From Celeribacter neptunius (lineage in GTDB: Bacteria > Pseudomonadota > Alphaproteobacteria > Rhodobacterales > Rhodobacteraceae), in the NCBI RefSeq assembly GCF_900113955.1, contig NZ_FORH01000001.1, forward strand, positions 984,395-1,048,394: a DNA stretch of 64,000 nt, given 5' to 3'. The notes beneath the pieces are model-generated. The model had not been told where the DNA came from, searched no databases, and saw nothing but the letters and a program-made list of their open reading frames with translations. Positions within the stretch are counted from its first letter, which is position 1; each line of letters starts with the position of its first letter. The translations under genes were made by a program, and so were the position numbers. Below, piece by piece: positions 43,831-60,853 of this stretch.

Positions 43831-43855
43831 GATGGTGGGTGATAAGAGATTTGAA
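43831..43855. repeat. attL, 25-bp direct repeat
   Basis: Starts GATGGTGGGTGATAAGAG and ends ATTTGAA; identical over 25 bp to 60829-60853. It is a copy of the last bases of tRNA-Val including the CCA-encoding TGG, left behind by site-specific integration. Confidence 0.95.
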
Positions 43856-43882
43856 TTTTGCCCCGAGTTAATGATTTCAATT

Positions 43883-43904
43883 ACTTACAAGTCATTTTGT
43901 AACC
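43883..43904. promoter_or_regulatory. Candidate integrase arm-type sites, left end
   Basis: TTGTAACC at 43897-43904, with an inverted partial copy (TTGTAAGT on the minus strand, 43883-43890). The same octamer occurs twice beside attR. It lies ~42 bp inside attL, as expected for arm sites of a tyrosine integrase. Confidence 0.55.
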
Positions 43905-44000
43905 ATGTTACCGCCCACAAAACGGACCAGATGACGTAGCGTCAACTGTGGGCAAAATTAAAGGCGAGGCACCGAAGCACCTCGCCCAAAACATTGGCTA

Positions 44001-44762
44001 TTAGTATTCCTTCCCGATAAAATCGGTAAAGAATTGAAGCTTATCGCGATCTTGCTTGAACCTAAGACTGAATGTCTCAGCGGAAGTATTGCGCGAGAGC
44101 GCCCAATAGAGACGCGCCTCGCCAGCTTGTTCTTCCGCCTCTGTCGCGTTCAACGAAAGAAGAACGTCGAACAAATTCACGTTGGACCAATTGCAGCCAA
44201 TATCTGTCACCCTCATTGTCAAAGACTTGGCACCATCCCGGTTCGGCGAAACAGTCAGCAATACCGCAGCGTTCCACTTCTGCGCCAGACGCTTCAAGCC
44301 GCGATAAGTAGCACCGCCTTCCGAAGCCATGAATTCGGGACAATCCACGACAATCAAATCAAATTCGGTTCCAGCCATTTGGCAACCGACAAGCGCAGCA
44401 TCCAATGCGCCCGCCGTCAACTCATTAAGAGGAAAATCAACAACCTTCAGAATACCGCATTCACTCGCATCACTCACGGTCTCATCGGGCATGTTATCAA
44501 TGAGCCTAGCGACGATCTCTTTTGCCACTTCAAGAGCGACATAAAGAACGTTGAAGCCAGCCTGAACTGCATTCTTGGCCATATCTCCGAGTGCGAGAGA
44601 CTTTCCGAAACCATCATTGCAAAGAAGGCAGGAAAGCTCTTTGCGGCCCCACCCACCATGATACAGGTGACGATCAAATTCCGTATAGCCTGTGGTAATG
44701 CCGGACACTGTTTGTGCCGCCGCGCCATCAATCAGAGAGTTTGTAAGCGTATCCAGAGCCAT
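44001..44762 (-). CDS. RecA/DnaB-superfamily ATPase with altered Walker A
   Basis: 253 residues with one RecA-like ATPase core. TGYTEFDRHLYHGGWGRKEL precedes a Walker A at ~48-55 reading CNDGFGKS, where the usual first glycine is cysteine. LYVALEVAKEIVARLIDN matches the helix after the DnaB H1a strand, Walker B is FDLIVVD (Asp140), and VLLTVSPNRDG and WALSRNTSAE resemble sensor and finger motifs. It looks like a shortened replicative-helicase C-domain or a KaiC-like ATPase, probably the element's replication protein. It begins 1 bp into the stop of the upstream gene (TAATG). There is no hexamer N-domain or primase. Confidence 0.7.
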   Translation of the reverse strand: MALDTLTNSLIDGAAAQTVSGITTGYTEFDRHLYHGGWGRKELSCLLCNDGFGKSLALGDMAKNAVQAGFNVLYVALEVAKEIVARLIDNMPDETVSDASECGILKVVDFPLNELTAGALDAALVGCQMAGTEFDLIVVDCPEFMASEGGATYRGLKRLAQKWNAAVLLTVSPNRDGAKSLTMRVTDIGCNWSNVNLFDVLLSLNATEAEEQAGEARLYWALSRNTSAETFSLRFKQDRDKLQFFTDFIGKEY

Positions 44763-45070
44763 TATGCCCCCTCCCCGTTCACTTCGCCCTCACCACGACC
44801 AAGAAAAAGCCGCGCGAAGCTGGCATGGGTCCGACCCTCATCAAGCCACTGTTTGAAATCAGCGGCACCAAGAGTGTCCACAACGTAGCCATTAGCGTCA
44901 TGAGACATTTCGCTATGATCATCCGAGAAGCGCGCCAAAAACTCACTGAGCATTTGGACGGCTTGCCCACTTTCAGGCATGTGCAAATAACCTTCTGCCA
45001 ACTTTTGAAGCATCTTCCTCTTAGACATTGCTTCGTTAGGATAATTGCGATATTCGATATTAGTGCTCAC
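44762..45070 (-). CDS. Hypothetical early protein, 102 aa
   Basis: Starts at GTG 45070 with AAGGAG seven bases upstream. The sequence (EAMSKRKMLQKLAEGYLHMP, FLARFSDDHSEMSHDANGYV, FKQWLDEGRTHASFARLFLG) is mostly helical and soluble; no family recognised. It overlaps the following ATPase by one base, so the two are translationally coupled and may work together in replication. Its leader is packed with dyads (45099-45231). Confidence 0.65.
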   Translation of the reverse strand: MSTNIEYRNYPNEAMSKRKMLQKLAEGYLHMPESGQAVQMLSEFLARFSDDHSEMSHDANGYVVDTLGAADFKQWLDEGRTHASFARLFLGRGEGEVNGEGA

Positions 45071-45098
45071 TGCTAATACTCCTTAGATTGAGCTTTGA

Positions 45099-45562: not shown

Positions 45563-46090
45563 TCAGAACATGCCATAGTTCTTTTGCGCTTCGAGTGCCG
45601 CTTGTTCCGCATCGGCTTGCGCCTTGGCTTCGCGCTTTTTCTGGCGCGCCTCTTGCTTAATCACCAACGCAGCCTGAATCCTTTCTTCGGACCAGCCCGC
45701 CTTTTTCTTCTCACGCCTAAATCGGTTGTCGCTACTCTGATCAGATTTCGCCTGCTTTTCCTCCGGCGAGAGATTGCCATAGCGCTTCTGCTCTTTTTCG
45801 GCGTGACGCTTTTTCGCATTCTCGTCGTGCTCGTCTCTCGTCTTACCTTCGATCTTCTCATACGACCGAACGACACCACCGTTCTCAGCAGCATATTCGG
45901 CCCGCTGCCTCTGCTTTTGCGCCTCGTATTCTTGCGGATCGCGCTCGGCCTTCCACCGCCTCGCATTACGCGCTGAATGGAGGTCTGCGTTCTCTTGCTT
46001 GATCTTCGCTCGCGTGTTTCTGATCAGGTCACGCTGTTGCGGTTTAAGGTTGGAACGACCTTGTGTGTCGTCGCTATTTTTGCTATTCAT
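45563..46090 (-). CDS. Hypothetical highly charged protein, 175 aa
   Basis: Lys/Arg/Glu/Gln-rich throughout, mostly predicted helix: RRWKAERDPQEYEAQKQRQR, NAKKRHAEKEQKRYGNLSPE, IKQEARQKKREAKAQADAEQ. The last part is a likely coiled coil. The composition suggests nucleic-acid binding or a scaffold, but no family is recognised. AGGA precedes the ATG. It lies directly downstream of the RHH regulator gene. Confidence 0.6.
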   Translation of the reverse strand: MNSKNSDDTQGRSNLKPQQRDLIRNTRAKIKQENADLHSARNARRWKAERDPQEYEAQKQRQRAEYAAENGGVVRSYEKIEGKTRDEHDENAKKRHAEKEQKRYGNLSPEEKQAKSDQSSDNRFRREKKKAGWSEERIQAALVIKQEARQKKREAKAQADAEQAALEAQKNYGMF

Positions 46091-46142: not shown

Positions 46143-46589
46143 TTATTTTGCGGCCTCTTCGATCACATTTGCCAGATCGGTCGCCACGTCGAGATTGAGC
46201 GGGTATTCTTTCTTCGTGATCGGCGAGACCAGTTTGAGGCCGTTCCCTGCGCGCTTCACCTCAATACCACTCAAAGCCGCAGCACCTTCGATCCAGCGTT
46301 TCTTGCGCTCAATATCCTTCGCAGTGAAAGAACCGGCAGACGCCAAGACCTCGGCGACGGTCGGCCCCTCACCCATCGGAATGAGCGCTTCCATATCGCC
46401 CGCGACGATCTTGATACCATCCTCAGACTTGGCGACGTCCACGCCCGGAATGTCAGCCGGGATTGTTCCCGCTTCGATCTCGCTGCGGACGTAATCGCCG
46501 ATCACCTCGGAAATGGTTTTGTTTTTGGCTTCCGCGATCATGCGAAGTTGTTCAACGCGTTCACCGGGAAGACGAATGTGGTTACTCAT
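46143..46589 (-). CDS. Ribbon-helix-helix type regulator
   Basis: 148 residues. The N-terminal ~45 (IRLPGERVEQLRMIAEAKNK, TISEVIGDYVRSEIEAG) has the strand-helix-helix pattern of MetJ/Arc/CopG DNA-binding proteins. The rest (DIPGVDVAKSEDGIKIVAGD and on) is an unrecognised domain. A perfect 16-bp palindrome lies 35-50 bp upstream of its start, as expected for autoregulation by an RHH dimer pair. It is the first early gene, next to the iteron-like region, and may set lysogeny or copy control in place of a CI-type repressor. Confidence 0.68.
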   Translation of the reverse strand: MSNHIRLPGERVEQLRMIAEAKNKTISEVIGDYVRSEIEAGTIPADIPGVDVAKSEDGIKIVAGDMEALIPMGEGPTVAEVLASAGSFTAKDIERKKRWIEGAAALSGIEVKRAGNGLKLVSPITKKEYPLNLDVATDLANVIEEAAK

Positions 46590-46639: not shown

Positions 46640-46666
46640 GTGCGTCAATCGGAAATTTGGAGAAAA

Positions 46667-46841
46667 ATGTTTCTGCGTATTTCTTGAGAGCACTTCAAAC
46701 CGGGGGAAAAGTGTTTCTGCGCATTCCGCAGGAAGGTGTTTAGACAGCCACAGGAGGAATGTTTCTGCGTATTTCTTGCCTGTTAGGTATATATATAAAT
46801 TATTAGTATTTATTAAACACTCAAGAAATACGCAGAAACAT
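46667..46841. repeat. Iteron-like array with AT-rich core, candidate origin
   Basis: ATGTTTCTGCGTATTTCTTG occurs at 46667-46686 and 46759-46778 and inverted at 46822-46841, all exact; a decayed copy is at 46711-46730. The last two exact copies are convergent and flank 43 bp of almost pure A/T (46779-46821). The layout resembles an iteron origin or a large operator. The rest of the gene-free stretch, 46842-47099, is GC-richer with no gene or repeat recognised. Confidence 0.75.
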
Positions 46842-47099: not shown

Positions 47100-49085
47100 T
47101 CAGGCCGCAGACCGCCGCAACACACCACCGGGGCGCATCATCTTCGTGATTTCGGACTGGACCAACGCTTTCATACTGCGTTCGGTCTCACTGGCGATCT
47201 TGGCGGCAAGGTCACGGTTCTTTTCCGGCGATCCGCCCGAAGCGTTCACGCTGATATTCGGCGCAATGGTGATCGAAGGTGCGGCGCTCATGGTCGGCTG
47301 TGACAGGCTGCTTGCCTTCGCCGCACCGACGAACCCGCCGCTCGCATAACCGCGAAGTGCAGAGCGATGCAGCGCATCGAGGTTCGCAACTCCGAGGCGT
47401 TCGGTCGCACGCTTCGACATAACGAATTCACCTCCATGCACGACACCCTTCGGCTCAAACGTGCCACCATCGCCAGTGTAGCCACCCGAAGCGAACGGCA
47501 GGAGACCACCAACCGCAGACGACACCCCGCCAAAAGCCCCAGAAAAGAGTTGCATCAAGAGCTTGTTCATGGCCGCCTGTGCGAGCTGCGCCAGTAAATC
47601 AAGAACCGCTTGTTCGGCAGATTTTGCGCCAGAGAAGACGCTCATGAACATTCCACTCAAAGCCTCTGCACCCCGTTGGCCCGCACCTTCGACCTGTTCG
47701 AGTTTCTTCGCGGCCTGCTCCGCATTCATGCCTGCCGTGACATACGCCTTTGCAAGCCGATCAATCTCGGCACTCAATTCCGGCGTGATCGCACGGCCTT
47801 CCGCCTGAGCCGCTGCCAGAAGCTGCGCACGCACACGGGCATATTCAACCGCATCACCGTAGCCCTGCGCCTGTGTCGCCGCCTGTTGCGCGGCTTGTGC
47901 TTCCGCCACATAGGCAAGGCGCTGGCGTTCCAGAGCCGCCACTGCGCCTTCATAGCCGCCCTGAGACCCTGCGCCGCCACCTGCGCCCGGTCCGGTGCCT
48001 GACGTGCCTCCTACGGGCGTCTCTGGTGGCGTCCAAGCATCACCCGAGGGCGACCAAGCCGGGGTGTTTCGCTGGCTCAAAATACCGATGATCTTGTTTT
48101 CTTCCGCGTCCAGTTCAGCAATGCGTTCCTGAAGGATTTCCGAAGGTGTCCCACTGCGTGAGCGCTTGCGATCAGACCAACCCGATTGCTCTTGATCGGT
48201 CGCATAGAGACCGGCTTTCTCTGCCATGATTTCGGCTTGGCGGCTTTCAAGTGTGGCGGTGCGCTGCGCTTCGAACGCCCGGAACCCGTCGATAAACTCC
48301 GAGAGCGAATAGGCCGCTGAGATGATCGCAGACTTCAAAGTCGTGCCGACCGTGTTCGCAACGGTCGTGAATTGCCGGTCGAGAATATCAGCCTTTGCAA
48401 TCAAGTCATCACTCATGACCAGCCCGAGGTTCACGGCCTCGCGTTTGGTCTCTTCGATCTTGCGCGCGCCCTGCCCCAGAAGTTCAACAAAGCGCTCGCC
48501 GCCGGTGCCACCGAACAATTCGTCAGCGATCCGAATTTGCGCCGCCTTGTCCATCTGTTCGAGACGTTCGAGAATTTCGGACATGAGCGCAGACGGGTCT
48601 TTGAGTTTTCGCGCCAATTCTTCGGCGGTGTATCCGAGACGTTGAAAAGCATCCGCCCCACTGCCCTTGCCGGTCATGACGAATTCGTCGGCGCGAAGAT
48701 TGAGTTCTTTCAAGCCATCGATCAGGCTATCAACCGGAATTCGGTTTTGCTCTGCGACGTGCGCCCAGATTTGAAAGTCTTCGGCACTCACACCGGCACG
48801 GCGGGCTTCATTGCCCACGGTTGCCACTTCCCGCGCAAGCACACGGGTCTGTGCAATCGCGGTTGCCGCGGCCCCGGCGATCAAAGTCACGCCTGCGGCA
48901 ACGCCAGCGCCTGAGAATTTCACACCGCCAAACGCCTTGTTCATTTTGCCAGCGGTGCGTTTGGAACGGCTCTCAGCGTCGCGGGCAAATCTTTGCTGTG
49001 CGCGGTTTGCTTTCGCTAGTGCCTTTTCAAGTCGATCGATACGCCCCTCAATTGGGACAATCAGGCCGGGAAGTTCATTCGTCAT
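47100..49085 (-). CDS. Phage tail tape measure protein
   Basis: 661 residues. A coiled N-terminus (RIDRLEKALAKANRAQQRFA) is followed by a hydrophobic stretch at ~57-80, a helical TMP core (GVSAEDFQIWAHVAEQNRIP, LKELNLRADEFVMTGKGSGA), a Gly-rich linker around 365-385, and a C-terminal region (GYTGDGGTFEPKGVVHGGEF, VMSKRATERLG) typical of lambda-like tape measure ends. It sets tail length and passes into the host envelope in siphophages. At 661 residues it would specify a tail on the order of 100 nm by the usual rule. It lies 18 bp downstream of TerL, an unusual neighbour; no tail tube gene is beside it. Confidence 0.85.
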   Translation of the reverse strand: MTNELPGLIVPIEGRIDRLEKALAKANRAQQRFARDAESRSKRTAGKMNKAFGGVKFSGAGVAAGVTLIAGAAATAIAQTRVLAREVATVGNEARRAGVSAEDFQIWAHVAEQNRIPVDSLIDGLKELNLRADEFVMTGKGSGADAFQRLGYTAEELARKLKDPSALMSEILERLEQMDKAAQIRIADELFGGTGGERFVELLGQGARKIEETKREAVNLGLVMSDDLIAKADILDRQFTTVANTVGTTLKSAIISAAYSLSEFIDGFRAFEAQRTATLESRQAEIMAEKAGLYATDQEQSGWSDRKRSRSGTPSEILQERIAELDAEENKIIGILSQRNTPAWSPSGDAWTPPETPVGGTSGTGPGAGGGAGSQGGYEGAVAALERQRLAYVAEAQAAQQAATQAQGYGDAVEYARVRAQLLAAAQAEGRAITPELSAEIDRLAKAYVTAGMNAEQAAKKLEQVEGAGQRGAEALSGMFMSVFSGAKSAEQAVLDLLAQLAQAAMNKLLMQLFSGAFGGVSSAVGGLLPFASGGYTGDGGTFEPKGVVHGGEFVMSKRATERLGVANLDALHRSALRGYASGGFVGAAKASSLSQPTMSAAPSITIAPNISVNASGGSPEKNRDLAAKIASETERSMKALVQSEITKMMRPGGVLRRSAA

Positions 49086-49103: not shown

Positions 49104-50717
49104 TTAAAATGTAAAAAGTCCGCCCGAATTCGGGTCGTTGTAGGCACTCATGTTGGATTGACCGAGAGTCAGGCGGTAGACCGCCATGGCCGCAGCAACG
49201 GCACCGTCAATGCGGTCGGTCTTCTTGCCTTTGTGCATCTTCACCAGCCCGCTATCGGTGCGGACAGCGACCACGCTCGCGAGGTGATGCCGCAAGATCG
49301 GGTGTCCATCGTGGCGAATGAGCTTGCCGTTCACGATACGCTCAAGATCGGCACCGGCTGCGCCCATCGTCAGCGGACCTTGGCGCACTTCCACAACCGG
49401 CAAACCATCATCGTAAAGTCGTTGCATGATCCGTTGCGCAAGGTGCGGGTCAAAGCCGATTTCGCGCACGTCATACGTCGCGCACAACTCGCGAATTTCG
49501 TCTTCAACATCCTCTTCCGAGATGATCGGACCAGCACAGAGGCGAATGAGCCCTTTATCGGCCCATTCCTGATACGGCACCCCATCACGGTCAGATCGGG
49601 CTTTCAGGTCTTCCCCTGGCACAAAGAACGTGGGCTTCAACGTCACCTGCCCGTCAGGATGTTGGAACGCCGCGACAACGGCGGTCAGGTCGCCAGAGCG
49701 CGACAGGTCAACCCCAAGCCAACACGGCAGGGTTTCGAGGTCTGCCGGATCGTCATCAAACTGGCGCGCGTCATAGGTTGCGAAGTCAAAGAGCGGGTCG
49801 CGGCTGTTCGCAAACCAGCGGTTCAAGTTGTATTGTTCGAAGCTGTAACGCTCGCTCGGACTGTCCGCCGCTTTCTTCGCCACAGACCGCAGCCCGTCCA
49901 GATCGGGGAAGCCGTAAGGCAAGCCGGGGTTGACCTTGTGCCAAACCTCTTCGTCGTCCCATTGGTCGCCCTCTTCCGGCTCAAACAGGATCGGCAACAC
50001 CTCTTCGTTTTCGATCTGACCGAGGGCAACACCGCGCGCATAGTTGTAGAGATCGGCGGCAAGCCCTTCGTTTCCGCGACCGGCAGTTGTCGCAATGACC
50101 GTCAAGCCACCTGCCCGCTTCACCATGCCCGATTGCAGCGCTTCCCAAAGATCATTGCCGCGCCATGTGTGGATTTCATCGGCGAGCACAAAGGTCGGCG
50201 TCGTGCCGTGCTGTGCGCGCCCGTCCGAGGATACAGACTTGAGCGAAGACCCGTCCAACGCGCTCTTGATCGTCTTCGGCGCGTTGTGGGCGTCGTAAAT
50301 CTTGGTCACGCCTTCAAGACGTTTGTCTTGGCGCACAATCTCCGCAGCCTCACGGAAACCAATGCCCGCTTGTTCACGGTCTGACGCAGCAAAGATGATC
50401 TGACCCGCCGCTACCCGCTCAGGTCCGAGAAGATGCAGAAGTGCGAGCGCCGCAGCCAGCGAGGTCTTGCGATTACCGCGCGGGATCATGAGAAAAACCT
50501 GTTTCACGATCCGCGACCCGTCAGGTTTGCGCGGGCCGTAAATCCGGCGAACGATACGCTCTTGCCACGGCGCGAGCTGAAAGGCGCGTTTTGGTGCCGT
50601 GCTCGCCGGATGCCGCAGACGCCGCAAGAATTCCACCGCGCGCTCACCGAAGCCCATCGGATCGGGAATAGGTGAATTGTCCGTCACCCATGTCGGATAG
50701 GTGCTCTTCGTGCTCAT
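49104..50717 (-). CDS. Phage terminase large subunit
   Basis: 537-residue motor that packages DNA into the prohead and cuts it. The ATPase domain has an altered-type Walker A PRGNRKTS (~79-86) and Walker B FVLADEIHTW (Asp180, Glu181), followed by VIATTAGRGN as coupling motif. The nuclease domain has acidic residues in LGVDLSRSGDLTAVV, VREIGFDPHLAQRIM and KTDRIDGAVAAAMA. This matches the HK97-like Terminase_1 family used with cos-type packaging. The TerS stop is 3 bp upstream. Confidence 0.95.
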   Translation of the reverse strand: MSTKSTYPTWVTDNSPIPDPMGFGERAVEFLRRLRHPASTAPKRAFQLAPWQERIVRRIYGPRKPDGSRIVKQVFLMIPRGNRKTSLAAALALLHLLGPERVAAGQIIFAASDREQAGIGFREAAEIVRQDKRLEGVTKIYDAHNAPKTIKSALDGSSLKSVSSDGRAQHGTTPTFVLADEIHTWRGNDLWEALQSGMVKRAGGLTVIATTAGRGNEGLAADLYNYARGVALGQIENEEVLPILFEPEEGDQWDDEEVWHKVNPGLPYGFPDLDGLRSVAKKAADSPSERYSFEQYNLNRWFANSRDPLFDFATYDARQFDDDPADLETLPCWLGVDLSRSGDLTAVVAAFQHPDGQVTLKPTFFVPGEDLKARSDRDGVPYQEWADKGLIRLCAGPIISEEDVEDEIRELCATYDVREIGFDPHLAQRIMQRLYDDGLPVVEVRQGPLTMGAAGADLERIVNGKLIRHDGHPILRHHLASVVAVRTDSGLVKMHKGKKTDRIDGAVAAAMAVYRLTLGQSNMSAYNDPNSGGLFTF

Positions 50718-50720
50718 GGC

Positions 50721-51116
50721 TTACACCGCAAGCGGGTCGTCGTCGTCCGCATCCTCTGGCGCATTTGAGCCGATCCGGGCGCGTGACGTGGGCGTGAGGC
50801 CGTATTCGCTGGCGAACTGCCGTGCGGTCTGTGCTGCGCGGTTCATCACACCGAAGAGCTTCACGTCGATATGCCCACCGGCGGCGGCGCGTTCCTCTTC
50901 GATCTGGCGCACGATACCGACCGAGATGCAGTAACTTTCCACGCCCGCAAGATCGGCTTTCGTGATGATCCGTCGCGCGATCAGTTGCGGCATGATCCGC
51001 TTCCATTCGGCTTTGGCGTGGGCGCTAAGATATTTCGGCGCGGTCGGTGCCTTCGTCAAAGCGTCTGTGTCGGGGGTCAGGGCGGGCTTAATGCCGCGCA
51101 TGTGTATGGCGCTCAT
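50721..51116 (-). CDS. Phage terminase small subunit (P27 family)
   Basis: 131 residues; recognises the packaging site and loads TerL. LSAHAKAEWKRIMPQLIARR and ADLAGVESYCISVGIVRQIE are the P27-family core, and AAQTARQFASEYGLTPTSRA precedes an acidic tail. Its start overlaps the adaptor stop by 4 bp (ATGA). Together with TerL and HNH it makes the cos-packaging set. Confidence 0.9.
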   Translation of the reverse strand: MSAIHMRGIKPALTPDTDALTKAPTAPKYLSAHAKAEWKRIMPQLIARRIITKADLAGVESYCISVGIVRQIEEERAAAGGHIDVKLFGVMNRAAQTARQFASEYGLTPTSRARIGSNAPEDADDDDPLAV

Positions 51117-51427
51117 ACCGCTGCCCCTGTGATTTGCAGACCACCACGGCGATCAAGCTCGACAATCTGGCGAATGTCATAGCTCTGCCCTTTGTATGTC
51201 ACCCGGTCGTCGGTCGTGATCGTCGCAGGCGTCCAGCGGATCACAAAGACCCGTGTCGCTTTCTCGCCTTCACCGAGATCAAGCGTGACCTGATCCGCCA
51301 TGAGGTCACGCACTTCGGCGCGCACGGTCAGGAAGGTTTCCCACGTCTCAAGGGTCGCGCCGGTCTCTGTGATCTCTTCGGCCTTACGCTCAAAGCTCAC
51401 TTGCCGGTCAAGATTACCTGCTTTCAT
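51113..51427 (-). CDS. Phage head-tail adaptor (SPP1 gp16-like)
   Basis: 104 residues of a small beta barrel: GNLDRQVSFERKAEEITETG, TFLTVRAEVRDL, RVFVIRWTPATITTDDRVTY, GQSYDIRQIVELDRRGG. This is the head-closure/stopper profile of the Phage_H_T_join family. The ATG at 51427 sits two bases after the upstream stop with GGAAGG before it; a GTG five codons earlier is possible. Confidence 0.85.
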   Translation of the reverse strand: MKAGNLDRQVSFERKAEEITETGATLETWETFLTVRAEVRDLMADQVTLDLGEGEKATRVFVIRWTPATITTDDRVTYKGQSYDIRQIVELDRRGGLQITGAAV

Positions 51428-51429
51428 GG

Positions 51430-53266: not shown

Positions 53267-53767
53267 ATGGACCTAACAAGTGTTTCCGAGATCATTGGCC
53301 TTGCCACAGGCGCAGTTGGTCTCACGGGCAAAGCCGCATCCACAGCAGAGACGATCAAAGGTTTGATCTCGTCTGACAAAGAACCAGACAAGGGCGAAAC
53401 GGCTCAGCTACTGAATACCCTAGCTTCACAGCTAACTGCCGCGAACCTAATGAACGTGCAGCTCAGTGAGGCTCTTCGATCACTAAGTGCAGACCTTCAA
53501 AAACAAGATGAATTTGAGCGAGAGAAGGCGCGTTATGAATTACATGAAACCGGAGATGAAGCGCTTGTGTTTAAGCTTCGCGAGGACGCAGCGAACGGCC
53601 AGCCGATGCACTACCTTTGCCCTGTTTGTCTTCACCGGGATAAGCTCTTTAGTTACCTACAGGGCGACAACAAGATAAAATTCTGTCAAACGGACTCAAC
53701 GCACTTCTTTCATTTCGCCCCTAGAGAGCCAAGGAAACCAAGACGGGGTTCAGCTTGGGTTGTGTGA
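53267..53767 (+). CDS. Accessory protein: helical region plus zinc-ribbon-like end
   Basis: 166 residues. The N-terminal 45 are helical and hydrophobic in places (IIGLATGAVGLTGKAASTAE); ~45-95 looks like a coiled coil (NVQLSEALRSLSADLQKQDE). The C-terminal part has ARYELHETGDEALVFKL and LCPVCLHRDKLFSYL, with a later Cys in KFCQTDSTHFFHF, suggesting a Cys/His zinc ribbon. Proteins of this layout are common in phages and proteobacterial islands without known function. It is a plus-strand cargo gene of the element. Confidence 0.6.
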   Translation: MDLTSVSEIIGLATGAVGLTGKAASTAETIKGLISSDKEPDKGETAQLLNTLASQLTAANLMNVQLSEALRSLSADLQKQDEFEREKARYELHETGDEALVFKLREDAANGQPMHYLCPVCLHRDKLFSYLQGDNKIKFCQTDSTHFFHFAPREPRKPRRGSAWVV

Positions 53768-53778: not shown

Positions 53779-54465
53779 TCACGCACTACGCAAATCACCC
53801 ACCGTCAGCACCTTCTCAGTCGGCATACCTTTCCGAAGGCGCGTCTTAATCGTCGCGGCGTTGATACCTGTGCGCCAAGACCATTCTTTCACAGTCAAGG
53901 TCTCGCCGTTGTGGGTAATCGTCAATTCTGGCGGTCCACGCCGCCACGTCTTCTTTTGAGCTTCGCGACAAGCACGACCCTGCACCTCTTGGCGCGCCTC
54001 TTCCTGTGCATCTTCGACACTCACCGATAGAGCTTTAGCCAGAGGCCAGCCACGGCCAAGACGCGCATGAATAGTGCTCACCTTGAGGCCCGTGCGTTCT
54101 GACCATTCCGCAAGCGTCAGGGTTTCGCCGTTGTGCGTATAGGTCGGGATTGATCGCTTCTCTTGCTCTTTCCGCTGGCTGGCGTTGAACTCAATCTTTC
54201 GCTTCTGCACACCATCCAAAAGCTCTTCTGCGGTCGGTGCCTCTGCGATCCGCTTCCGCATGTGTTCGATCACCTGCATCATATCCGGATCAGCACCATC
54301 ACAGACGATTTGTAAGTCTTCGTTCTCGGTCGTCAGGAATGTGCGTGTCTCTTCGATCATCCGCAGCTTTGTTTTTCGTGAGGAACCACTCTCGCCACCA
54401 ATGCCGAATGTGGCGTCTTCCACGGCAAGCAAGAGCACAGCGGTCCAGAGATCGCGCTCAGCCAT
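53779..54465 (-). CDS. Phage protein with two tandem HTH repeats
   Basis: 228 residues. The N-terminal ~95 (AERDLWTAVLLLAVEDATFG, DGADPDMMQVIEHMRKRIAE) is helical and resembles phage proteins found near packaging genes. The C-terminal half holds two copies of one ~40-residue unit: THNGETLTLAEWSERTGLKV / STIHARLGRGWPLAKALSV and THNGETLTVKEWSWRTGINA / ATIKTRLRKGMPTEKVLTV. Each is a helix-turn-helix of the sort often attached to homing-type nucleases. AGGGA precedes the ATG at 54465. Probably DNA-binding; role unknown. Confidence 0.65.
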   Translation of the reverse strand: MAERDLWTAVLLLAVEDATFGIGGESGSSRKTKLRMIEETRTFLTTENEDLQIVCDGADPDMMQVIEHMRKRIAEAPTAEELLDGVQKRKIEFNASQRKEQEKRSIPTYTHNGETLTLAEWSERTGLKVSTIHARLGRGWPLAKALSVSVEDAQEEARQEVQGRACREAQKKTWRRGPPELTITHNGETLTVKEWSWRTGINAATIKTRLRKGMPTEKVLTVGDLRSA

Positions 54466-54652
54466 TACTGTTCCCTTTCGATGGGAGCGAACCACCTCCA
54501 AAAAGAGACCAGAAAATCCGTATGATGATAAAATAACACATCTTAATTTGGTCACATTTACGCGATTGCCGATAAGAGAACGGCTGCATAGAAAAGCTGC
54601 ACGCAATTTCGCGTGGGAAACATTCATCTTTAGATTTCATTCGGGGGAAACT

Positions 54653-54994
54653 GTGAAAAAAGTTCTGACAGCCGCCTTTATTTCCGTTGCTGCGCTTACC
54701 GCCTGCGAACAAGCAAGCGTTCCAGAAATGACGCACTACAATGGCAGACCGCTTCAACTTGTAGCCAAAATGACACCGGGCATGTTCGATGAAGAGGTCA
54801 AGCTCTATATCGACAATGAACTCGTCATCAATGAGCGCTCGCAACCTTTCGGCGGCTCGTCTCAGACGTTTGAGGGAACTTGGAAAGGTCGCAAGGTAGT
54901 TGCCCGCGCCACCGCTGTGCAGAAGTTCATGACCAGCTACATCATGGTTGACGTCTTTATCGACGGAACACTGGTCGATACACTCACCATCTAA
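54653..54994 (+). CDS. Small lipoprotein, accessory
   Basis: 113 residues from GTG 54653 with GGGGGA five bases upstream. The signal VKKVLTAAFISVAALTAC ends in the lipobox LTAC, so Cys18 would be acylated and the protein anchored in the envelope. The mature part is a small beta-rich domain (MFDEEVKLYIDNELVINERS, KVVARATAVQKFMTSYIMVD). No family recognised. Prophage lipoproteins often block superinfection; that is a possibility, not shown. Confidence 0.62.
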   Translation: MKKVLTAAFISVAALTACEQASVPEMTHYNGRPLQLVAKMTPGMFDEEVKLYIDNELVINERSQPFGGSSQTFEGTWKGRKVVARATAVQKFMTSYIMVDVFIDGTLVDTLTI

Positions 54995-55010
54995 ATTTCG
55001 AATAGCGCGC

Positions 55011-55352
55011 TCAGACATGGGCGCGCTCTTCCCGTTGCTTCTGCCGGTCGTGGCACGGCTTGCACAGCGCTTGCCAATTGCTCTTATCCCAGAATAGCCG
55101 GTCGTCGCCTTTGTGTGGAATGATGTGATCCACCACGGTCGCGGGCGACCCGCAGCGGGCGCAAACAGGGAAGTATTTCAGGAACTCAAGACGGGCTTTG
55201 CGCCATGTGTGGTTGTAGCCCCTCTGAGCCGCCATAGGGCGTCTTTGGTCGTGGCGTTTGTTCCGGGCGCGGGTGCGGGCGATCTGACACGCACAGCGCT
55301 CGCCATGCGGCACCACGCGACCGCAGGAACAGACGTGCGGCGGTTTAGGCAT
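55011..55352 (-). CDS. HNH endonuclease
   Basis: 113 residues. Zinc-binding CxxC pairs occur as CARCG and CKPCH, the HNH core is VVDHIIPHKGDD (first His) with NWQALCKPCHDRQKQRE (Asn, final His); an extra Cys-rich N-terminus (CSCGRVVPHGERCACQ) is present. Such HNH proteins cooperate with TerL for cos cleavage in HK97-like phages and in capsid-forming satellites. Its start overlaps the upstream gene by 8 bp. Confidence 0.9.
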   Translation of the reverse strand: MPKPPHVCSCGRVVPHGERCACQIARTRARNKRHDQRRPMAAQRGYNHTWRKARLEFLKYFPVCARCGSPATVVDHIIPHKGDDRLFWDKSNWQALCKPCHDRQKQREERAHV

Positions 55353-55980
55353 TCAGCCTCGCTTTCAGGCCGTGCAGCTTGTTTCGATCAAAGGCCGGGT
55401 CGTGTCCAAGCTCTTCAATCTCTTTCAGGCGTTCCGGCGTGTAATCATTTGCTTGCGGTGCGGGGTCTTCCTCTGCGCTGCCGTGAATGGCTTTCAACAT
55501 GGCAAGCTTGCCTTTGAAGGCTTCGGTGATCTCGGTCGGTGTTGCCGCCCATGTTTCTTGCGGCGTCCAGCCAAGCCAGCCCGTGCCGATCTGGTAAAGC
55601 TCTGCGTAGGCGTCAGACCATGAGAGCGCTTTGCCGGTCTTCTTGGGTGTCTCTGCGCCCTGTCCTTCATCATCGCCGGTGGGGTTCAGGAACCTGCTCA
55701 GGAGCGCCACACAGGGGCCTTCCAGAGTCGCCTTGATCTGTTTGAGGGGTTTACCCTCCAGAGAAGACAAAAGAGCCTCAGCGGCAACGTGGGACACCGC
55801 TGAGGCTCGAATGAGCGTTTGCACCGTGTTCAAGTGGAATTGGTCGAAGTGAAGGAGAAAGCCCGACCAACCGTTATACAAACGCTCAAGGGTCATCGCA
55901 GCCCGCAAGGTCGGTCGCAGAGTCACGACATGACCACCGTGACGAACTGTGACCTCTTCCAAGCGGGCGAGCGGTGTCAT
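55345..55980 (-). CDS. Tail assembly chaperone-like protein
   Basis: 211 residues. VRHGGHVVTLRPTLRAAMTL at the start and YQIGTGWLGWTPQETWAATP with TEITEAFKGKLAMLKAIHG in the C-terminal half recall tail-chaperone proteins of alphaproteobacterial phages, whose products bind the tape measure. The similarity is by pattern, not alignment. It lies 3 bp after the capsid stop and overlaps HNH, far from the tape measure gene, which is unusual. Confidence 0.55.
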   Translation of the reverse strand: MTPLARLEEVTVRHGGHVVTLRPTLRAAMTLERLYNGWSGFLLHFDQFHLNTVQTLIRASAVSHVAAEALLSSLEGKPLKQIKATLEGPCVALLSRFLNPTGDDEGQGAETPKKTGKALSWSDAYAELYQIGTGWLGWTPQETWAATPTEITEAFKGKLAMLKAIHGSAEEDPAPQANDYTPERLKEIEELGHDPAFDRNKLHGLKARLNA

Positions 55981-55983: not shown

Positions 55984-57516
55984 TTATGCAGCCATGAGCA
56001 ACTTACGGAACGCAGTCGGACGCACGACACCGGCACCAACGCGGCGGCGGGCATGGTAACGCATCAAACCGGATGTGCGCACTGTGTAGGGGTCGGCCAT
56101 CACAGCGAGAGACAGGCGGTCATAAATGCGGTAGCCGCGTTTGAAGTCACCGAAGATGATCGGTTCGGCACCGTCTGCCACGTCAGGCATGTCCACAGCT
56201 TCGACCACCGGGCGACCGAGGATCGTCTCAGGTTGACCGGACTGATAGGACGGCTGCCACAGATAGTTGCCGTTGCCGTCTTTCATGGTGCGGATCGTGG
56301 CGAGGGTCGCGCCGTTCATGACGAACGTCCCGGCGTTCCGGTAGGTCGCCGGGAGCGCATACATCATCGCGATAAGAGCGTCAGCATCGAGGTCGGTCGC
56401 GTGACCGTTCGAGGTCGCGGCGATATTGGTGTCTTGCATAAAACCGGACGGCTCAAGAGCGGTGCTGCCGTTCACGAATGACAGGGCTTCTTTCTGACCG
56501 AAGTCTTCGGACAGGGCGAGATTGACCTCACCGAGAACGTTCGCACTGTCTTCTGCAAGTTGAAGCGACAGGTCCACATAGGTCGCCATTTCCTTGATCG
56601 CCAGTTCACCTTGATCAAAGGTCGGCTCACTGCCGGTGCGGGTATCGGTTTCACCAACCCAAACGGCATTGGTCACAGAGGTCCGTTTCGGCAAAAGAAC
56701 GGTATGGGACGCGGTGGTGCGCACATCGGCAATGCCACGGATCGGCGAGAACTCGACAAGGTTGCGAATGAACTCGCTCGAAGTATCTTCCGGTGCGAGC
56801 ACATAGTTCGGATTGTCGTTCGCAACGGTCAGCGATTTCTTTTCGGCGTCGTTGCCTTGCAGGTAAGAGACGAACGCTTTCTGTTCGGGCTTCTGACCGT
56901 TCACAATAGCCGGTGCGCCGGTCGGGCGGTTCGATTTGGCTTCCAGAGCGTCAAGACGCGCGTTCACGCGGTCGAAAGCTTTGGTGTCCATTTGCGGTGC
57001 ATTGGCCGGTGCCGCTTTGGCTTCCGGCTCATTGGTTTCGATGTCTTCGTTTTCCATGAGAATTTCCTTGTTCAAATTTGAAGATTTTAAAGAGGTGATC
57101 TGCGCCCCCGGATGAGCCGGAACGGCAACAATGCTGATTTCGTGAAGTTCAAGCGCAGTAATCTTGCGCCCCTTGCCCACGCGCTTTGCGTCTTTTGTGA
57201 AGAACCCAATGGAAAGCCCTGAGATCGCACCTGATTTTACCATCGCGCGCACTTCACGGGCGCGTTCAACGTCTTCGATCAGAAGACGCCCCTTCACGGT
57301 CAAACCGGCGTCGGTTTCTGTCAGTTCATCCCAGACGCCCACCACCTGCGCTTGGTCGTGAGCGAAGAGCATGGGAAGGGTTTTCGGACCTGAGAACGCG
57401 CCCTTTTCGATCACATCGCCCACGCGGTCGGCAGAGCCGAACGGCCACGCAATGCCGGTGATCTCGCCCGTGTCCGTGACGCTCAGGTCGGCTTTGATTT
57501 CGAGACGGTCGGTCAT
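55984..57516 (-). CDS. Fused HK97-type prohead protease and major capsid protein
   Basis: 510 residues joining two proteins normally separate. Residues 1-~145 are the prohead protease: IAWPFGSADRVGDVIEKGAF, catalytic His53 in LFAHD, the serine motif SGAISGLSIGFFT (Ser99/Ser102 region) and HEISIVAVPAHPGA. From ~154 comes the HK97-fold capsid protein, with a helical delta-like region (~165-215) and the shell domain (RTTASHTVLLPKRTSVTNAV, DLSLQLAEDSANVLGEVNLA, FGDFKRGYRIYDRLSLAVM). An internal ATG at 57057 (residue 154) has AAGGAA six bases upstream, so free capsid protein can be made from the same gene. Its start overlaps the previous stop (ATGA). Confidence 0.92.
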   Translation of the reverse strand: MTDRLEIKADLSVTDTGEITGIAWPFGSADRVGDVIEKGAFSGPKTLPMLFAHDQAQVVGVWDELTETDAGLTVKGRLLIEDVERAREVRAMVKSGAISGLSIGFFTKDAKRVGKGRKITALELHEISIVAVPAHPGAQITSLKSSNLNKEILMENEDIETNEPEAKAAPANAPQMDTKAFDRVNARLDALEAKSNRPTGAPAIVNGQKPEQKAFVSYLQGNDAEKKSLTVANDNPNYVLAPEDTSSEFIRNLVEFSPIRGIADVRTTASHTVLLPKRTSVTNAVWVGETDTRTGSEPTFDQGELAIKEMATYVDLSLQLAEDSANVLGEVNLALSEDFGQKEALSFVNGSTALEPSGFMQDTNIAATSNGHATDLDADALIAMMYALPATYRNAGTFVMNGATLATIRTMKDGNGNYLWQPSYQSGQPETILGRPVVEAVDMPDVADGAEPIIFGDFKRGYRIYDRLSLAVMADPYTVRTSGLMRYHARRRVGAGVVRPTAFRKLLMAA

Positions 57517-57890
57517 GCCGCGACACTCAGGGAAGCCCCCAGATCACCGGTCGCGGCGACTTCGGTCTCTTCATCTTTGGCGCTCACACCGCTCCAACGG
57601 GCTTCCATGATCTCGAATGCGAGCGGGAAGACCTCAGACAGCGGACGGTTTGCGGCGTAGGCGTCACAGAGACGTTTCGCGTCTTCCGGGTCAGCACCGC
57701 CACCGATTAGACCGAGGCGAATGACCTCTGTGAGAAGGTTCACCGGATAGGCACCATTCACGAACTGGAAATAGAGCGCACCGACACCAAGGCCGGTAAT
57801 CCGTTCAAGTTCAGCAAGCATGGGATCGGTCAGGCAAAAGGCGTGGTCGCGATCACCGAAAAAGCCGGTGTAGGTAATCTGTTCATTCAT
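57513..57890 (-). CDS. GTA-gp10/TAC-like protein
   Basis: 125 residues: FCLTDPMLAELERITGLGVG, LTEVIRLGLIGGGADPEDAK, plus NRPLSEVFPLAFEIMEARWS. The pattern of a short beta strand, LaELE...G, then RLGLxGGGxxxxxA fits the small tail-chaperone-like protein found in gene transfer agents and related phages (GTA gp10/TAC_11 type). It is coupled on both sides by overlaps with portal and capsid genes, an unusual position. Confidence 0.65.
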   Translation of the reverse strand: MNEQITYTGFFGDRDHAFCLTDPMLAELERITGLGVGALYFQFVNGAYPVNLLTEVIRLGLIGGGADPEDAKRLCDAYAANRPLSEVFPLAFEIMEARWSGVSAKDEETEVAATGDLGASLSVAA

Positions 57891-59070
57891 TGGAAATGTC
57901 TTCTTTCTCAGGCGCGGAAATTGCGCCGGTTGTCGTGTAAGGGTTCTGCAATTCGTTGCCGTTGGCGTGGGGCTGCAAATTCAGCCCTGCCCGCACTTCA
58001 TTCGCAGTCATGACACCCATGCTGCGATATTGGCCGTAAGCGGCGGCACGGGCGGCGGTGTCGGTCGTGGTGAGATCATCGGTCACGAACTCCGCATAAA
58101 GCTCACGGCGCTCTTCCGGCGTCAGGAGACAACGCGCATAAGCCCATGCCCAATTGGTCAGCCACGGTTTGAGCGTCACTTGAAGGAACTGGCGCGCCAT
58201 TTCTTCGGTGTTCGACCATGTGCCACGGGTCAGCTCGAAAAGCATCGTGGGCGGGACACGGAAGACACGGGCGATTTCTCGGATTTGTTCGAGGCGGTTC
58301 TCGGCGAACTGTGCGTCGGTGAGCGTCATCGTCACCGCCTCATAGCTCATGCCCTCGTCAAGAATGGCCGTGCCGCCGGAATTGCCGGAACCATGTGCAG
58401 CGGTCCAGCTTGTCGCCAGATTGCGTTTGGCTTCATCACCAAGGGCTTTCTCGGATTTGATGATGCCGCCGGGTTTGCCACCATTGGCGAAGAGGCGCGC
58501 GATATGAGCCTCAAAGGCAAGCGCAAGCCCGATAGCCTCGCGACCGAGAACAATCGGTGAGACACCACCAAAGGCTTCAACGTGTAGAATGTCTGTGAAT
58601 GTGTAGCGGCGCGGACCGTCTGCATGTTGCACGATGTAGGTGGGTTCGCCGTAACTATCTGTTTCGATCTGCAAGGCGGAAGGCTCAATGCGGTGAAGCT
58701 CAACCGGGTCGCCAATGCCGTTGCGCACCACCAAAGCACAGCCACGACCGTAAAGAAGCGCGTCGGTCGTCAGTTGCTCGCGAAGAGCTTGCGCAGACGT
58801 CCACGGGTTCGCTTCGTCGTGCATGAGCTTATACGCGGGATGATCGGTAACAGACGCCCTACCCTCGCGCTCATAGAGCTTCACAGGCAAGCTGCCGACC
58901 GTCTCAGAGATCAGAGAGACCGCACAGGCCACCGCAGGAACGCGCATGGCGGACTCTGACGTGACGGTCTGACCAGTGATTGAAGGCGTAATGTTGAAAA
59001 TGGGGAAAGCGGCGGACGTCGAAACGCCCACCGCCTTCTTAGTAAATCTTGAAAGGACTTTTTGAAACAC
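57883..59070 (-). CDS. Phage portal protein (HK97 family)
   Basis: 395 residues. SESAMRVPAVACAVSLISET, GSLPVKLYEREGR, HPAYKLMHDEANPWTSAQAL, LLYGRGCALVVRNGIG, HVEAFGGVSPIVLGREAI, then RVFRVPPTMLFELTRGTWSN and EEMARQFLQVTLKPWL: the full HK97-type portal profile. It forms the dodecameric DNA gate at one capsid vertex. The likely start is GTG 59070, with no obvious ribosome site. A small dyad GGTAT-CATA-ATACC (59098-59111) lies upstream. Confidence 0.94.
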   Translation of the reverse strand: MFQKVLSRFTKKAVGVSTSAAFPIFNITPSITGQTVTSESAMRVPAVACAVSLISETVGSLPVKLYEREGRASVTDHPAYKLMHDEANPWTSAQALREQLTTDALLYGRGCALVVRNGIGDPVELHRIEPSALQIETDSYGEPTYIVQHADGPRRYTFTDILHVEAFGGVSPIVLGREAIGLALAFEAHIARLFANGGKPGGIIKSEKALGDEAKRNLATSWTAAHGSGNSGGTAILDEGMSYEAVTMTLTDAQFAENRLEQIREIARVFRVPPTMLFELTRGTWSNTEEMARQFLQVTLKPWLTNWAWAYARCLLTPEERRELYAEFVTDDLTTTDTAARAAAYGQYRSMGVMTANEVRAGLNLQPHANGNELQNPYTTTGAISAPEKEDISNE

Positions 59071-59161
59071 GAACTAAAAACACTTGAACTAAATAACGGT
59101 ATCATAATACCCCATTAAGCGCATAATGTGAATCCCTGTTCGAAAGAAAGTTTCAGGAGAT

Positions 59162-60739
59162 TTAGGTGAGATCGTATGCCGGTAGCTGATTGATCGCGTT
59201 GACCTTGGTCGCAAGCGTCACGTCGCCGTAGTTGTCGCCCGCAGTCTTTCCGGCGTGTCCTTGAATTGCATCGGCCACACGGTCAGAGATACCAAGCTCA
59301 CGGCATTGCGTTTTCAGCCGGTGCCGCCATGCGTGGTTTGGTTGCGCAAGATCATCAGGCGTCAGCTTTTCAGCGCGAAGCCATTCTGAAAGCTGGTTCG
59401 AGATACGAACCGCCTTTTGCAAATACTTCGCCGGATCGGTCCCATTGTGGAACAAGGGACCATTGCCAGAGGCTTCCACAAACGCCGGAAAACCCTCTTT
59501 GACGATCTGAGGGTGCAAAGGCACGTCACGATAGCCGCCAGCCTTCACAGTGCCCGCCTCTGGCGTGATACGGATTACCCAGACGTCACCCTCTTGCCGC
59601 ACATCCTCTTTCCGAAGCTGTGTGATCTCAGTGACCCGTGCGCCGGTGAAAGCACAGATGATAGGAACCCAACGTTTAGCGGCGACCAATTGCGGCTTTT
59701 CGCGAACCCTGCCCCATGCGTCTTCGTTTGGTTCATATGACCTAGAGGCTTTGAGCACCTTAACAGCTTCCGTGTCGGTGTAGCCCTTCTCACGGGTCAC
59801 AACCCGTTTTTGCTTGCTTTGCTTCACCGTCGCAGCGACATTCTCGGAAAGGCGCTCATTCTCAAACGCCCACTGCAACAGCGAGCGCACCGTTGAAAGG
59901 TAGACCGTGCTCACGGTTGTTGCCGACTTGCTTTTCAGAAGATCGTCACGCCATGCAATCACGTCCTTACGGGTGATTTTGGCCGCGTCGTCATGTTTGA
60001 GAAATTTGCGAAGGTTCTCAATTACCGTGGTGAGGCGCTTGCCCCCATCCTTCATGGAACCGGCTTGTTTGCGCATCGCCACATAATCAGACCAAAGGCG
60101 TTTAATGCTCACCGGCTCTGGCGTGTCTTGCGGGGGCTGTGCGTCTCTAATGATCGGCGCGCTAGGTGTGCCGGTAAAATCGCCTTCGTCGCGCTCTGCA
60201 ACCCGTCCTAAAGCCTCTAGCTCTGCACTACACAGCGCACGGGCAATCACACGCCATTCATCGCTTCCGATCTCCGCAGCGAGGTTGCCAGCCGCCCGGA
60301 ACCGTTCAACCTGATAGCCGACCAATTCCGACAACTCTGCATCGTCGGCACGTCCAGCAACCGCATTGCGAAGCCGCGAAACTAGGTCATCATCAATACC
60401 AACGTTTGCATATCGGCGATCATTCCTAAGTTCGTCATCAAAGGCGAGGCGCTGCGTGTAGTGGCTGTGCGCGATCTGTTGCGGCGTCAGGATGTAGCGA
60501 GGATCAGGCGCAATGTTCCGCCCGGTCTGTTGCGCATACATTCGTTCGGCGTCCGCGATCTCGCGTTGATGGTTCGCCACGGCACCCGGCAAAAGCTTGA
60601 GCGCTTGGCGGTAGTCACCACCGAGAGGGGTTCGCAGTTCCCACTTATTACTAAAGAAACCCCGAAGGTGTTGCGGCACAACTACCCGTGCATGATAACG
60701 CCCCGACCGATTCACTAAATGACGAACTTTTCCGGCCAT
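59162..60739 (-). CDS. Tyrosine integrase of the element
   Basis: 525 residues; integrates the element into tRNA-Val. The N-terminal ~1-70 is a DUF6538-like arm-binding region (HLVNRSGRYHARVVVPQHLR), a core-binding SAM-like domain spans ~210-300, and the catalytic domain follows. Active residues: Arg368 in AFTGARVTEITQL, Lys399 in GTVKAGGYRDVPL, His469 and Arg472 in NHAWRHRLKTQC, His495 in IQGHAGKTAGDN and the nucleophile Tyr504 in DNYGDV. The gene starts 90 bp from attR and points into the element. Confidence 0.95.
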   Translation of the reverse strand: MAGKVRHLVNRSGRYHARVVVPQHLRGFFSNKWELRTPLGGDYRQALKLLPGAVANHQREIADAERMYAQQTGRNIAPDPRYILTPQQIAHSHYTQRLAFDDELRNDRRYANVGIDDDLVSRLRNAVAGRADDAELSELVGYQVERFRAAGNLAAEIGSDEWRVIARALCSAELEALGRVAERDEGDFTGTPSAPIIRDAQPPQDTPEPVSIKRLWSDYVAMRKQAGSMKDGGKRLTTVIENLRKFLKHDDAAKITRKDVIAWRDDLLKSKSATTVSTVYLSTVRSLLQWAFENERLSENVAATVKQSKQKRVVTREKGYTDTEAVKVLKASRSYEPNEDAWGRVREKPQLVAAKRWVPIICAFTGARVTEITQLRKEDVRQEGDVWVIRITPEAGTVKAGGYRDVPLHPQIVKEGFPAFVEASGNGPLFHNGTDPAKYLQKAVRISNQLSEWLRAEKLTPDDLAQPNHAWRHRLKTQCRELGISDRVADAIQGHAGKTAGDNYGDVTLATKVNAINQLPAYDLT

Positions 60740-60752
60740 TTTTAAATCCCGT

Positions 60753-60820
60753 TTGTAACCAAAGTTGTAACCTTGAAACGGACATAAGCCCTTATTTGCA
60801 AGGGTTTTCTTTGATTACAA
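60753..60820. promoter_or_regulatory. Candidate integrase arm-type sites, right end
   Basis: TTGTAACC occurs at 60753-60760 and 60765-60772 (12-bp spacing), plus TTGTAATC inverted at 60813-60820. The octamer is also present inside attL. A small hairpin CCCTT-ATTTGC-AAGGG with trailing T (60789-60808) lies between them. Confidence 0.55.
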
Positions 60821-60828
60821 AGGGATAG

Positions 60829-60853
60829 GATGGTGGGTGATAAGAGATTTGAA
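60829..60853. repeat. attR, 25-bp direct repeat
   Basis: Identical to 43831-43855. It covers the 3' end of tRNA-Val from the CCA-encoding bases through the T-loop, so integration keeps the tRNA whole. Confidence 0.95.

Follow-up and report, generated by a model that had tools for sequence, protein, structure and literature searches.

The 64,000-nucleotide stretch of the Celeribacter neptunius genome analyzed here (hereafter the window; contig NZ_FORH01000001.1) contains, at positions 43831-60853, a 17-kb element that is likely to be an integrated capsid-forming satellite with chimeric tails, for which the satellite would set the length and a helper phage would provide tube and tip. As the element encodes its own tape measure, tail assembly chaperones and tail terminator but no recognizable tube or tip, a chimeric tail is the most likely outcome. 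The original prediction, made from the sequence of the window, allowed either such a satellite or a siphophage that had lost its tail genes. The satellite reading gains from a family of syntenic elements of equal size, which retains tape measure and chaperones without recognizable hub, fibre or lysis genes. The stripped siphophage is not supported, as the 50,697 phage records searched contain no near parent. A satellite that dictates tail length with a borrowed tube and tip is, we infer, the best mechanism on offer.

The predicted 17-kb element is real. It is bounded by perfect 25-bp direct repeats at tRNA-Val, with an att-to-att distance of 16,998 bp, and carries an HK97-type head, packaging and neck set. 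Almost every gene lies on the minus strand, the exceptions being two opposite-strand open reading frames (ORFs) of the cargo region. Along that strand the integrase is followed by portal, TAC_11 chaperone, protease-capsid fusion, TAC_6-type chaperone, HNH endonuclease and a small cargo region, then by connector, HK97-gp10, DUF3168 terminator, head closure, the small and large terminase subunits (TerS, TerL) and the tape measure, behind which come three direct repeats, a regulator, small unknowns and a DnaB-like ATPase. The features are as follows, with loci referring to the family described below.

43831-43855, no strand: attL, 25-bp direct repeat, exact copy of 60829-60853
44001-44762, minus: DnaB/RecA-like ATPase, possible replication helicase (phrog_19, DnaB-like helicase, 1.5e-23; Pfam under cut-off)
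44762-45070, minus: unknown 102-aa protein (no Pfam or PHROGs family at E 0.01)
45563-46090, minus: unknown 175-aa protein rich in charged residues (nothing above cut-off; 5 matches among loci)
46143-46589, minus: possible ribbon-helix-helix regulator (DUF6364 0.0066, 17.3 vs 27.3 bits, under cut-off)
46659-46773, no strand: three direct repeats of ~23 bp, upstream of the regulator gene
47100-49085, minus: tape measure protein, 661 aa, mosaic in its N and C parts (phrog_10574 6.5e-140, residues 6-641; PF10145 1.6e-8)
49104-50717, minus: TerL (PF20441 2.9e-34, PF03354 1e-22)
50721-51116, minus: TerS (PF05119 7.6e-20)
51113-51442, minus: head closure protein (PF05521 3.7e-18)
51430-51894, minus: DUF3168 tail terminator/completion protein (PF11367 7.4e-13; phrog_176, tail terminator, 8.4e-4)
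51845-52345, minus: HK97-gp10 neck protein (PF04883 2.3e-10; phrog_5 8.8e-21)
52321-52617, minus: head-tail connector, or adaptor (PF05135 1e-13)
52755-53090, plus: cargo-region ORF, 111 aa, opposite strand (no match in PHROGs and PADLOC scans)
53267-53767, plus: cargo-region ORF, 166 aa (phrog_1244, unknown function, 9.7e-17; cluster in 12 loci)
53779-54627, minus: helix-turn-helix (HTH)-repeat protein, recurrent between HNH and connector (phrog_3377 3.8e-18; 98 matches among loci)
55011-55352, minus: HNH endonuclease (PF01844 6e-9)
55345-55980, minus: second tail assembly chaperone, TAC_6 type (PF09550, Phage_TAC_6, 1.2e-4, 22.9 vs 23.4 bits, just under cut-off)
55984-57516, minus: prohead protease fused to major capsid protein in one ORF (PF04586 1.6e-23, PF05065 1.2e-74)
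57513-57890, minus: first tail assembly chaperone, TAC_11 / GTA-gp10 type (PF11836 1.3e-24; AlphaFold2 model)
57883-59070, minus: portal protein (phrog_12 1.2e-99)
59162-60739, minus: integrase (phrog_1 2.5e-32)
60829-60853, no strand: attR, 25-bp repeat overlapping tRNA-Val 60831-60905

Most gene names of the original prediction stand. Protease, capsid, connector, HK97-gp10, DUF3168/gp17, head closure, TerS, TerL, HNH and tape measure all exceed their Pfam cut-offs, and portal, integrase and the helicase-like ATPase were confirmed by PHROGs, the first two by PHROGs alone; the ATPase was matched in none of the other loci (161 searched). The two chaperone-like proteins fared differently, as Phage_TAC_11 lies above its cut-off and Phage_TAC_6 just under, at a position shared with relatives. 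The ribbon-helix-helix label comes from the sub-threshold DUF6364 match; this putative regulator has 46 matches among loci, usually behind the tape measure. The claim that all frames are intact holds for the core ORFs, which are of family-typical length, but 54458-55018 is unlikely to be a gene, and translation of 53779-54627 probably begins at an internal position. Within the repeats at 46659-46773 one 10-mer is present three times, a count reached by none of 100 shuffles, and in 12 of 40 loci the stretch from tape measure to regulator holds some 10-mer three or more times, with differing sequences and some near-copies among these loci, which suggests that the repeats are operators or iterons.

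The functions that were said to be missing stayed missing. Among the scanned window proteins neither Pfam nor PHROGs gave tail tip, hub, fibre, holin, endolysin or CI repressor as an identity, and neither matched AlpA or a primase. A weak PHROGs match of the tape measure to 'endolysin' was dismissed, being to the C-terminal piece of a larger profile. The same holds for relatives: 124 non-core ORFs of at least 70 aa from 13 end-mapped relatives, from which gpM, gpI and tube matches had been removed as core, included no hub, fibre, holin or endolysin family by Pfam (23 of 23 families), nor by PHROGs among the 25 of 67 families listed.

A tube might seem to be present in the product of 57513-57890, as PHROGs entitles it 'tail tube protein' (phrog_8985) and PF11836 is named 'Phage tail tube protein, GTA-gp10'. 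Six family sequences were used for an AlphaFold2 model (mean pLDDT 77.7, pTM 0.71), in which helices follow a beta-hairpin and a tube barrel is absent, and in a prophage (L191) the PF11836 protein adjoins a separate PF06199 tube gene. Because of this fold and this separate tube gene we read the protein as a chaperone and reject it as a hidden tube; its 'tail tube' label is most likely a naming problem. Such titles could mislead automatic annotation of tube presence. In VIA-align the model's best hit was a designed protein (Z 4.7), and 5ir0, a PLE protein, came fourth (Z 3.3, 85 residues, root-mean-square deviation 4.3), too weak to count. According to the Extended Data Fig. 7 legend of PMC12987554, 5ir0 is the TAC of PLE1.

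Searching for syntenic relatives of the same size yielded a conserved family. We used the best 80 of 192 confirmed relatives from a capsid query of IMG/VR, whose loci carry no host information, and the best 80 of 259 relatives from a TerL alignment query of a genome collection; together with the window the 160 relatives make 161 loci, of which 126 with capsid, TerL and connector were classified and 35 dropped. Near-copies occur, so that 94 complete loci of the window type become 81 once these are removed, and the capsid of L003 is identical to that of the window, probably being the same element. By record title the genome relatives belong chiefly to Rhodobacterales (Ruegeria, Roseovarius, Paracoccus, Yoonia) and Hyphomicrobiales (Agrobacterium, Ensifer, Mesorhizobium, Bosea, Martelella); the exceptions are two 'Proteobacteria' metagenome-assembled genomes (MAGs) and one of Exiguobacterium. 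The latter locus (L106, CP059262.1, Exiguobacterium profundum) has several split genes, and its organism name is probably wrong, the family being otherwise alphaproteobacterial. Two different family members, L151 and L153, reside in one genome, Rhodopseudomonas palustris JSC-3b, and in both of them gp10, TAC11 and tape measure lie behind TerL.

Gene order varies remarkably little among relatives long enough to show it, and so does size. In 42 elements whose ends were mapped by repeats of at least 17 bp the median end-to-end distance is 17.5 kb and 40 span 16.2-19.1 kb, within fetched genome loci of at most about 21.6 kb, where larger elements would be invisible; the outliers are L095 (8.6 kb) and L161 (15.0 kb, without tape measure). 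Their site is a tRNA gene in 38 of the 42 (Val 12, Gln 11, Thr 5, Pro 4, Met 2, Ser 2, Gly 1, Lys 1). Size evidence free of the length limit comes from the nearest row to the window in the TerL tree (81% identity, support of 99 by the Shimodaira-Hasegawa-like approximate likelihood-ratio test, SH-aLRT), a circular Paracoccus marcusii plasmid of 17,494 bp (L195, NZ_CP157016.1) with head, chaperone and tape measure genes as in the window plus a replication initiation protein. More distant small plasmid relatives (L196-L198) are a Roseomonas plasmid of 16,883 bp with no tape measure match and Methylorubrum plasmids of 16,127 and 23,392 bp, the larger with matches to tube and gpM as well as an insertion of Tn3 type. 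Known phages are far from the element: capsid identity is below 60% in all 846 phage records matched and TerL identity below 60% in all 2396, being about 33% among the 20 matches listed. Cargo among the 124 non-core ORFs comprises, by Pfam, four integrases, two HTH_17 proteins and single matches to Arc, Abi_C, Abi_alpha, SieB, TIR_2, nSTAND3, NinG, a CI-repressor HTH and others, and a protein in the cargo slot of L097 (L097:7153-7989), whose cluster occurs in 7 loci, resembles type IV methyl-directed restriction enzymes (2.7e-19). Judged by these matches, some family members carry genes of restriction, exclusion or abortive-infection type.

Annotation of one or two representatives per protein cluster (Pfam and PHROGs), together with a tube hidden Markov model (HMM) built from 135-180-aa members on which all tube counts rest, points to three grades of tail gene set on one head backbone: none recognized, tape measure and chaperones without tube, and tube and tape measure without hub or fibre. 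The window type, defined by TAC11 and TAC6, makes up 101 of the 126 classified loci; 95 of these have a tape measure, the other six being five contigs cut inside TerL and L154. The latter, from Devosia rhodophyticola, has no tape measure match; behind its satellite head module lies a second module of TerL, portal and connector. A tube was found in just two window-type loci, L144 and L149; at L144:4536-6188 (Aureimonas leprariae) capsid and tube share one 550-aa frame, either a fusion or a sequencing artefact. A gpM-like distal tail protein occurs in 17 window-type loci and a gpI-like tail assembly protein, encoded at several different places, in 14; as both are tip-region proteins in lambda, 'no tip' means for the family that no hub or fibre was recognized. 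The sister type, with a phrog_313 chaperone, numbers 16 loci, all with a tape measure and 15 with a tube; nine have two tandem tube-like genes, most have an extra chaperone, Phage_TAC_18, behind the tape measure, and an excisionase-like HTH was found in this type. Among the nine remaining loci five lack a tape measure by the family HMM.

By the family HMMs only, L040 (from a 64-kb contig), L145, L146, L147 and L161 have no recognized tail gene at all. Ten further ORFs of L161 and L145 gave integrase, Prim-Pol/VapE, transposase and acyltransferase in Pfam, and no tail family. L161, from an Alphaproteobacteria MAG, has 51-bp end repeats, integrase, Prim-Pol/VapE, head genes and a transposase behind TerL. 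In a quick TerL tree of 60 selected rows, 20 tube-less window-type rows form one clade (SH-aLRT 100); elsewhere the tree requires several changes of tail state, long-branch rows being unsure. Judging by this tree, a single head backbone thus seems to have had its tail gene set repeatedly exchanged or lost.

The length of the tape measure ranges from 631 to 969 aa (103 members), and among 116 tape measures 39 fall at 780-797 aa and 15 at 631-683 aa, including the 661 aa of the window, even though residues 241-390 of the relatives have a mean identity to the window of only 11-22%; clustered lengths over so divergent a middle are expected of a working ruler. Its two ends resemble different phages. 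The N-terminal 400 residues matched 27 phage records, best of all Sinorhizobium phage phi2LM21 (84% covered, 44.6% identity), which has a 629-aa tape measure and a gene order behind it that we take to be like that of a gene transfer agent (GTA). The family HMM also aligns, over positions 20-529, to the tape measure of L191, a prophage whose gene order reads as GTA-tailed; this match, near C14:141 kb of genome G042, was rejected as a satellite, since full head genes and a tube are present. The C-terminal 161 residues matched 1049 phage records (Klebsiella 402, Escherichia 321), with 41-45% identity among the 12 matches listed, and HMM positions 566-783 alone match the tape measures of L188-L190, 1290-1412 aa long, at their C-terminal ends; prophages with tape measures of this length exist in G042, G046 and G023. 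From the gpJ-domain and NlpC/P60 proteins that Pfam finds in L188, and from the kind of phages matched, we take this end to be of lambda type. By these alignments the tape measure is a mosaic, its N part like that of GTA-tailed siphophages and its C, tip-side part like that of long tape measures in other siphophages. PMC10721106 places the C-terminal helix of lambda gpH in the tail tip and describes gpM as the distal ring and gpI as an insertion protein, so the part of the tape measure that would contact the tip has another origin than the remainder. Where relatives carry gpM and gpI genes, these agree with a tip of lambda type, which suggests the kind of helper.

Tape measure and chaperones are clearly maintained by purifying selection, as the ratio of nonsynonymous to synonymous substitutions (dN/dS) is low. 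For pairs with 72-98% tape measure identity, excluding saturated or too-close comparisons and with members shared between pairs, the median is 0.158 for the tape measure (39 pairs, range 0.09-0.51), 0.18 for TAC11 (32 pairs) and 0.30 for TAC6 (36 pairs), beside 0.185 for capsid (33 pairs), 0.169 for TerL (39 pairs), 0.128 for DUF3168 and 0.167 for gp10.

We propose that a helper would induce excision from tRNA-Val, followed by replication, and that the genome of ~17 kb would be packaged into its own HK97-type capsid by its own terminase, HNH and neck proteins, the genes for which are all present. The tape measure, held by its chaperones, would dock through its C-terminal part on the tip complex of the helper, whose major tail protein would then polymerize around it to the length set by the satellite. 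Satellite terminator and neck would join the tail to the satellite head, and the helper would supply lysis.

Several observations weigh against this proposal. Particles, induction and transfer are deduced from an element known here by its genes, and the C-terminal match of the tape measure speaks of relatedness and not of docking. The scans may have missed a tube beyond the reach of Pfam and PHROGs profiles, or holins below 70 aa, and Foldseek found no significant match of the TAC11 model in the PDB (best E 2.4). In a mirror-tree comparison of 81 loci the tape measure showed no special coupling to its chaperones, rho being 0.51 with TAC11, 0.43 with TAC6 and 0.71 with portal, and the partial correlations 0.04, 0.02 and 0.33. 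Its distance matrix correlates at 0.61 with that of gp10 and at 0.34 with that of the neighbouring TerL. One exchangeable tail module was rejected as a description, there being no clean split and the tape measure tracking portal and gp10 above its chaperones.

Nor was a resident helper found in the genome of the window, where the original prediction had proposed looking for a complete helper prophage. Profiles PF05065, PF20441, TMP, PF05100, PF24801, PF05939 and PF10145 gave there no other tape measure, no lambda-type J, L or M and no additional TerL bearing the PF20441 nuclease domain; a single further HK97 capsid came up, within a GTA-like cluster outside the window (L187, G000:C5:516001-536000). 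Portal, protease and capsid of this cluster were assigned by HMM, its other genes being presumed; no tape measure was matched in it. Among 198 genomes of the host's family, where only some first-look candidates were scored, 13 have a tape measure match at 1e-10, some not satellites. A helper need not be resident, because the phages found to mobilize EcCIEDL933, a capsid-forming phage-inducible island (cf-PICI), are not native to its strain according to the available text of PMC11389934.

An element that takes whole helper tails, and uses tape measure and chaperones outside its virion to hamper helper tail assembly, is a rather unlikely alternative. The helper tape measure is a known satellite target, Rta acting on that of ICP1 (PMC12987554, text available), and SieB, Abi and TIR-type proteins occur in single relatives; mere interference, however, does not sit well with the joint retention of terminator, neck, two chaperones and tape measure, nor with tape measure lengths that cluster despite a divergent middle. 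We give a low probability to the tube being donated by the host's GTA or by a GTA-tailed siphophage, with TAC_11 recruiting a GTA-type tube. TAC_11 does belong to the GTA-gp10 family, the N-terminal part of the tape measure resembles phi2LM21 and L191, and a GTA-like cluster exists in the same genome; yet a different tail type is indicated by the C-terminal part and by the genes like gpM and gpI in some relatives, and the cluster itself yielded no tape measure match.

It is very improbable that the element is a defective siphoprophage from which tube, tip and lysis genes recently disappeared. A former tail module might have left tape measure, chaperones and terminator behind, but gene set, order and size are common to many genera, the genes are under purifying selection, a near phage parent is lacking, and the tube-less TerL rows form one well-supported clade. 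A self-sufficient small phage or GTA-like particle with unrecognized tube and tip is scarcely credible: although several window ORFs have no function assigned, the sister-type tube is readily detected and absent from the window element, no tube-size unknown recurs across most window-type loci, and 13 relatives have no lysis family. Returning to a satellite with chimeric tails, a bolder version is possible, to which we would give somewhat less than even chances: the family would rewire the helper tail, its mosaic tape measure, a tip-docking end of lambda type on a ruler of other derivation, making the helper tube, together with the chaperones, polymerize to a probably shorter length on satellite heads. 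Tail autonomy would then be sliding and exchangeable on one satellite backbone, from no tail gene up to tube plus distal ring or tip-insertion protein, in integrated and plasmid forms.

Gene transfer agents are not known to have an integrase or att sites and keep tube and tip genes in their cluster, whereas the window element has integrase and att repeats and no tube or tip was found in it. It shares with RcGTA and GTA-tailed siphophages a TAC_11-type protein, related DUF3168, gp10 and head closure proteins (as in L191) and the N-terminal part of the tape measure (phi2LM21, L191), but in these a tube gene is present and further genes follow the tape measure, and their TerL and capsid are distant. 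From a complete temperate siphophage it differs in that tube, tip and lysis genes were not found. AlpA and primase/rep genes are hallmarks of PICIs proper, and as neither AlpA nor primase was found among the scanned window proteins, we file the element as cf-PICI-like and as working in the manner of chimeric-tail satellites, and not as a PICI. With cf-PICIs, which use helper tails, it shares its own capsid, protease, portal, connectors, TerS, TerL and HNH (PMC10690885 and PMC11389934, text available), as well as integrase, att sites, small size and the lack of a complete tail set and of lysis genes; L161, a relative without tape measure, has integrase, Prim-Pol/VapE and head genes in 15.0 kb. 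The window element stands apart by its paired tail chaperones, its tail terminator and its tape measure, and some relatives add tube, gpM or gpI. That it is thereby unlike described cf-PICIs, as first stated, is no longer fully right, since putative tmp genes appear in the sampled cf-PICIs that PMC12987554 maps (Extended Data Fig. 10 legend). The Mulch and Flayer satellites of Streptomyces phages likewise encode capsid and packaging genes, differ in hosts and lifestyle, and are presented without the term 'tape measure' in the available text of PMC10690885. A phage-plasmid-satellite is mentioned in that of PMC11389934.

In our searches of the open-licence literature we met no description of this alphaproteobacterial family, its graded tail sets, tube-less paired chaperones, mosaic tape measure or plasmid members. 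The principle of a satellite tape measure is already known, since the available text of PMC12987554 (Nature 2026) shows it in the chimeric tails of the PLE satellites of Vibrio cholerae, which contain PLE TMP, TAC and BhuB. PLE11 virions have the satellite tape measure, not the helper's, and tails ~10 nm shorter, and in each of three PLEs deletion of tmp lowered transduction, by between 96% and 99.9% (same source). Like the window element PLEs encode TMP and TAC; unlike it they use the capsid of their helper, which is contractile-tailed. Satellites are usually described by the head parts they steal or remodel, whereas this family encodes its head and varies in its share of the tail, offering natural intermediates from a head-only satellite to an almost complete phage. 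It allows direct tests of what the tape measure contributes, length or tip docking, of how chaperones choose their tube protein, and of whether satellite control of the tail, so far shown for PLEs, is general.

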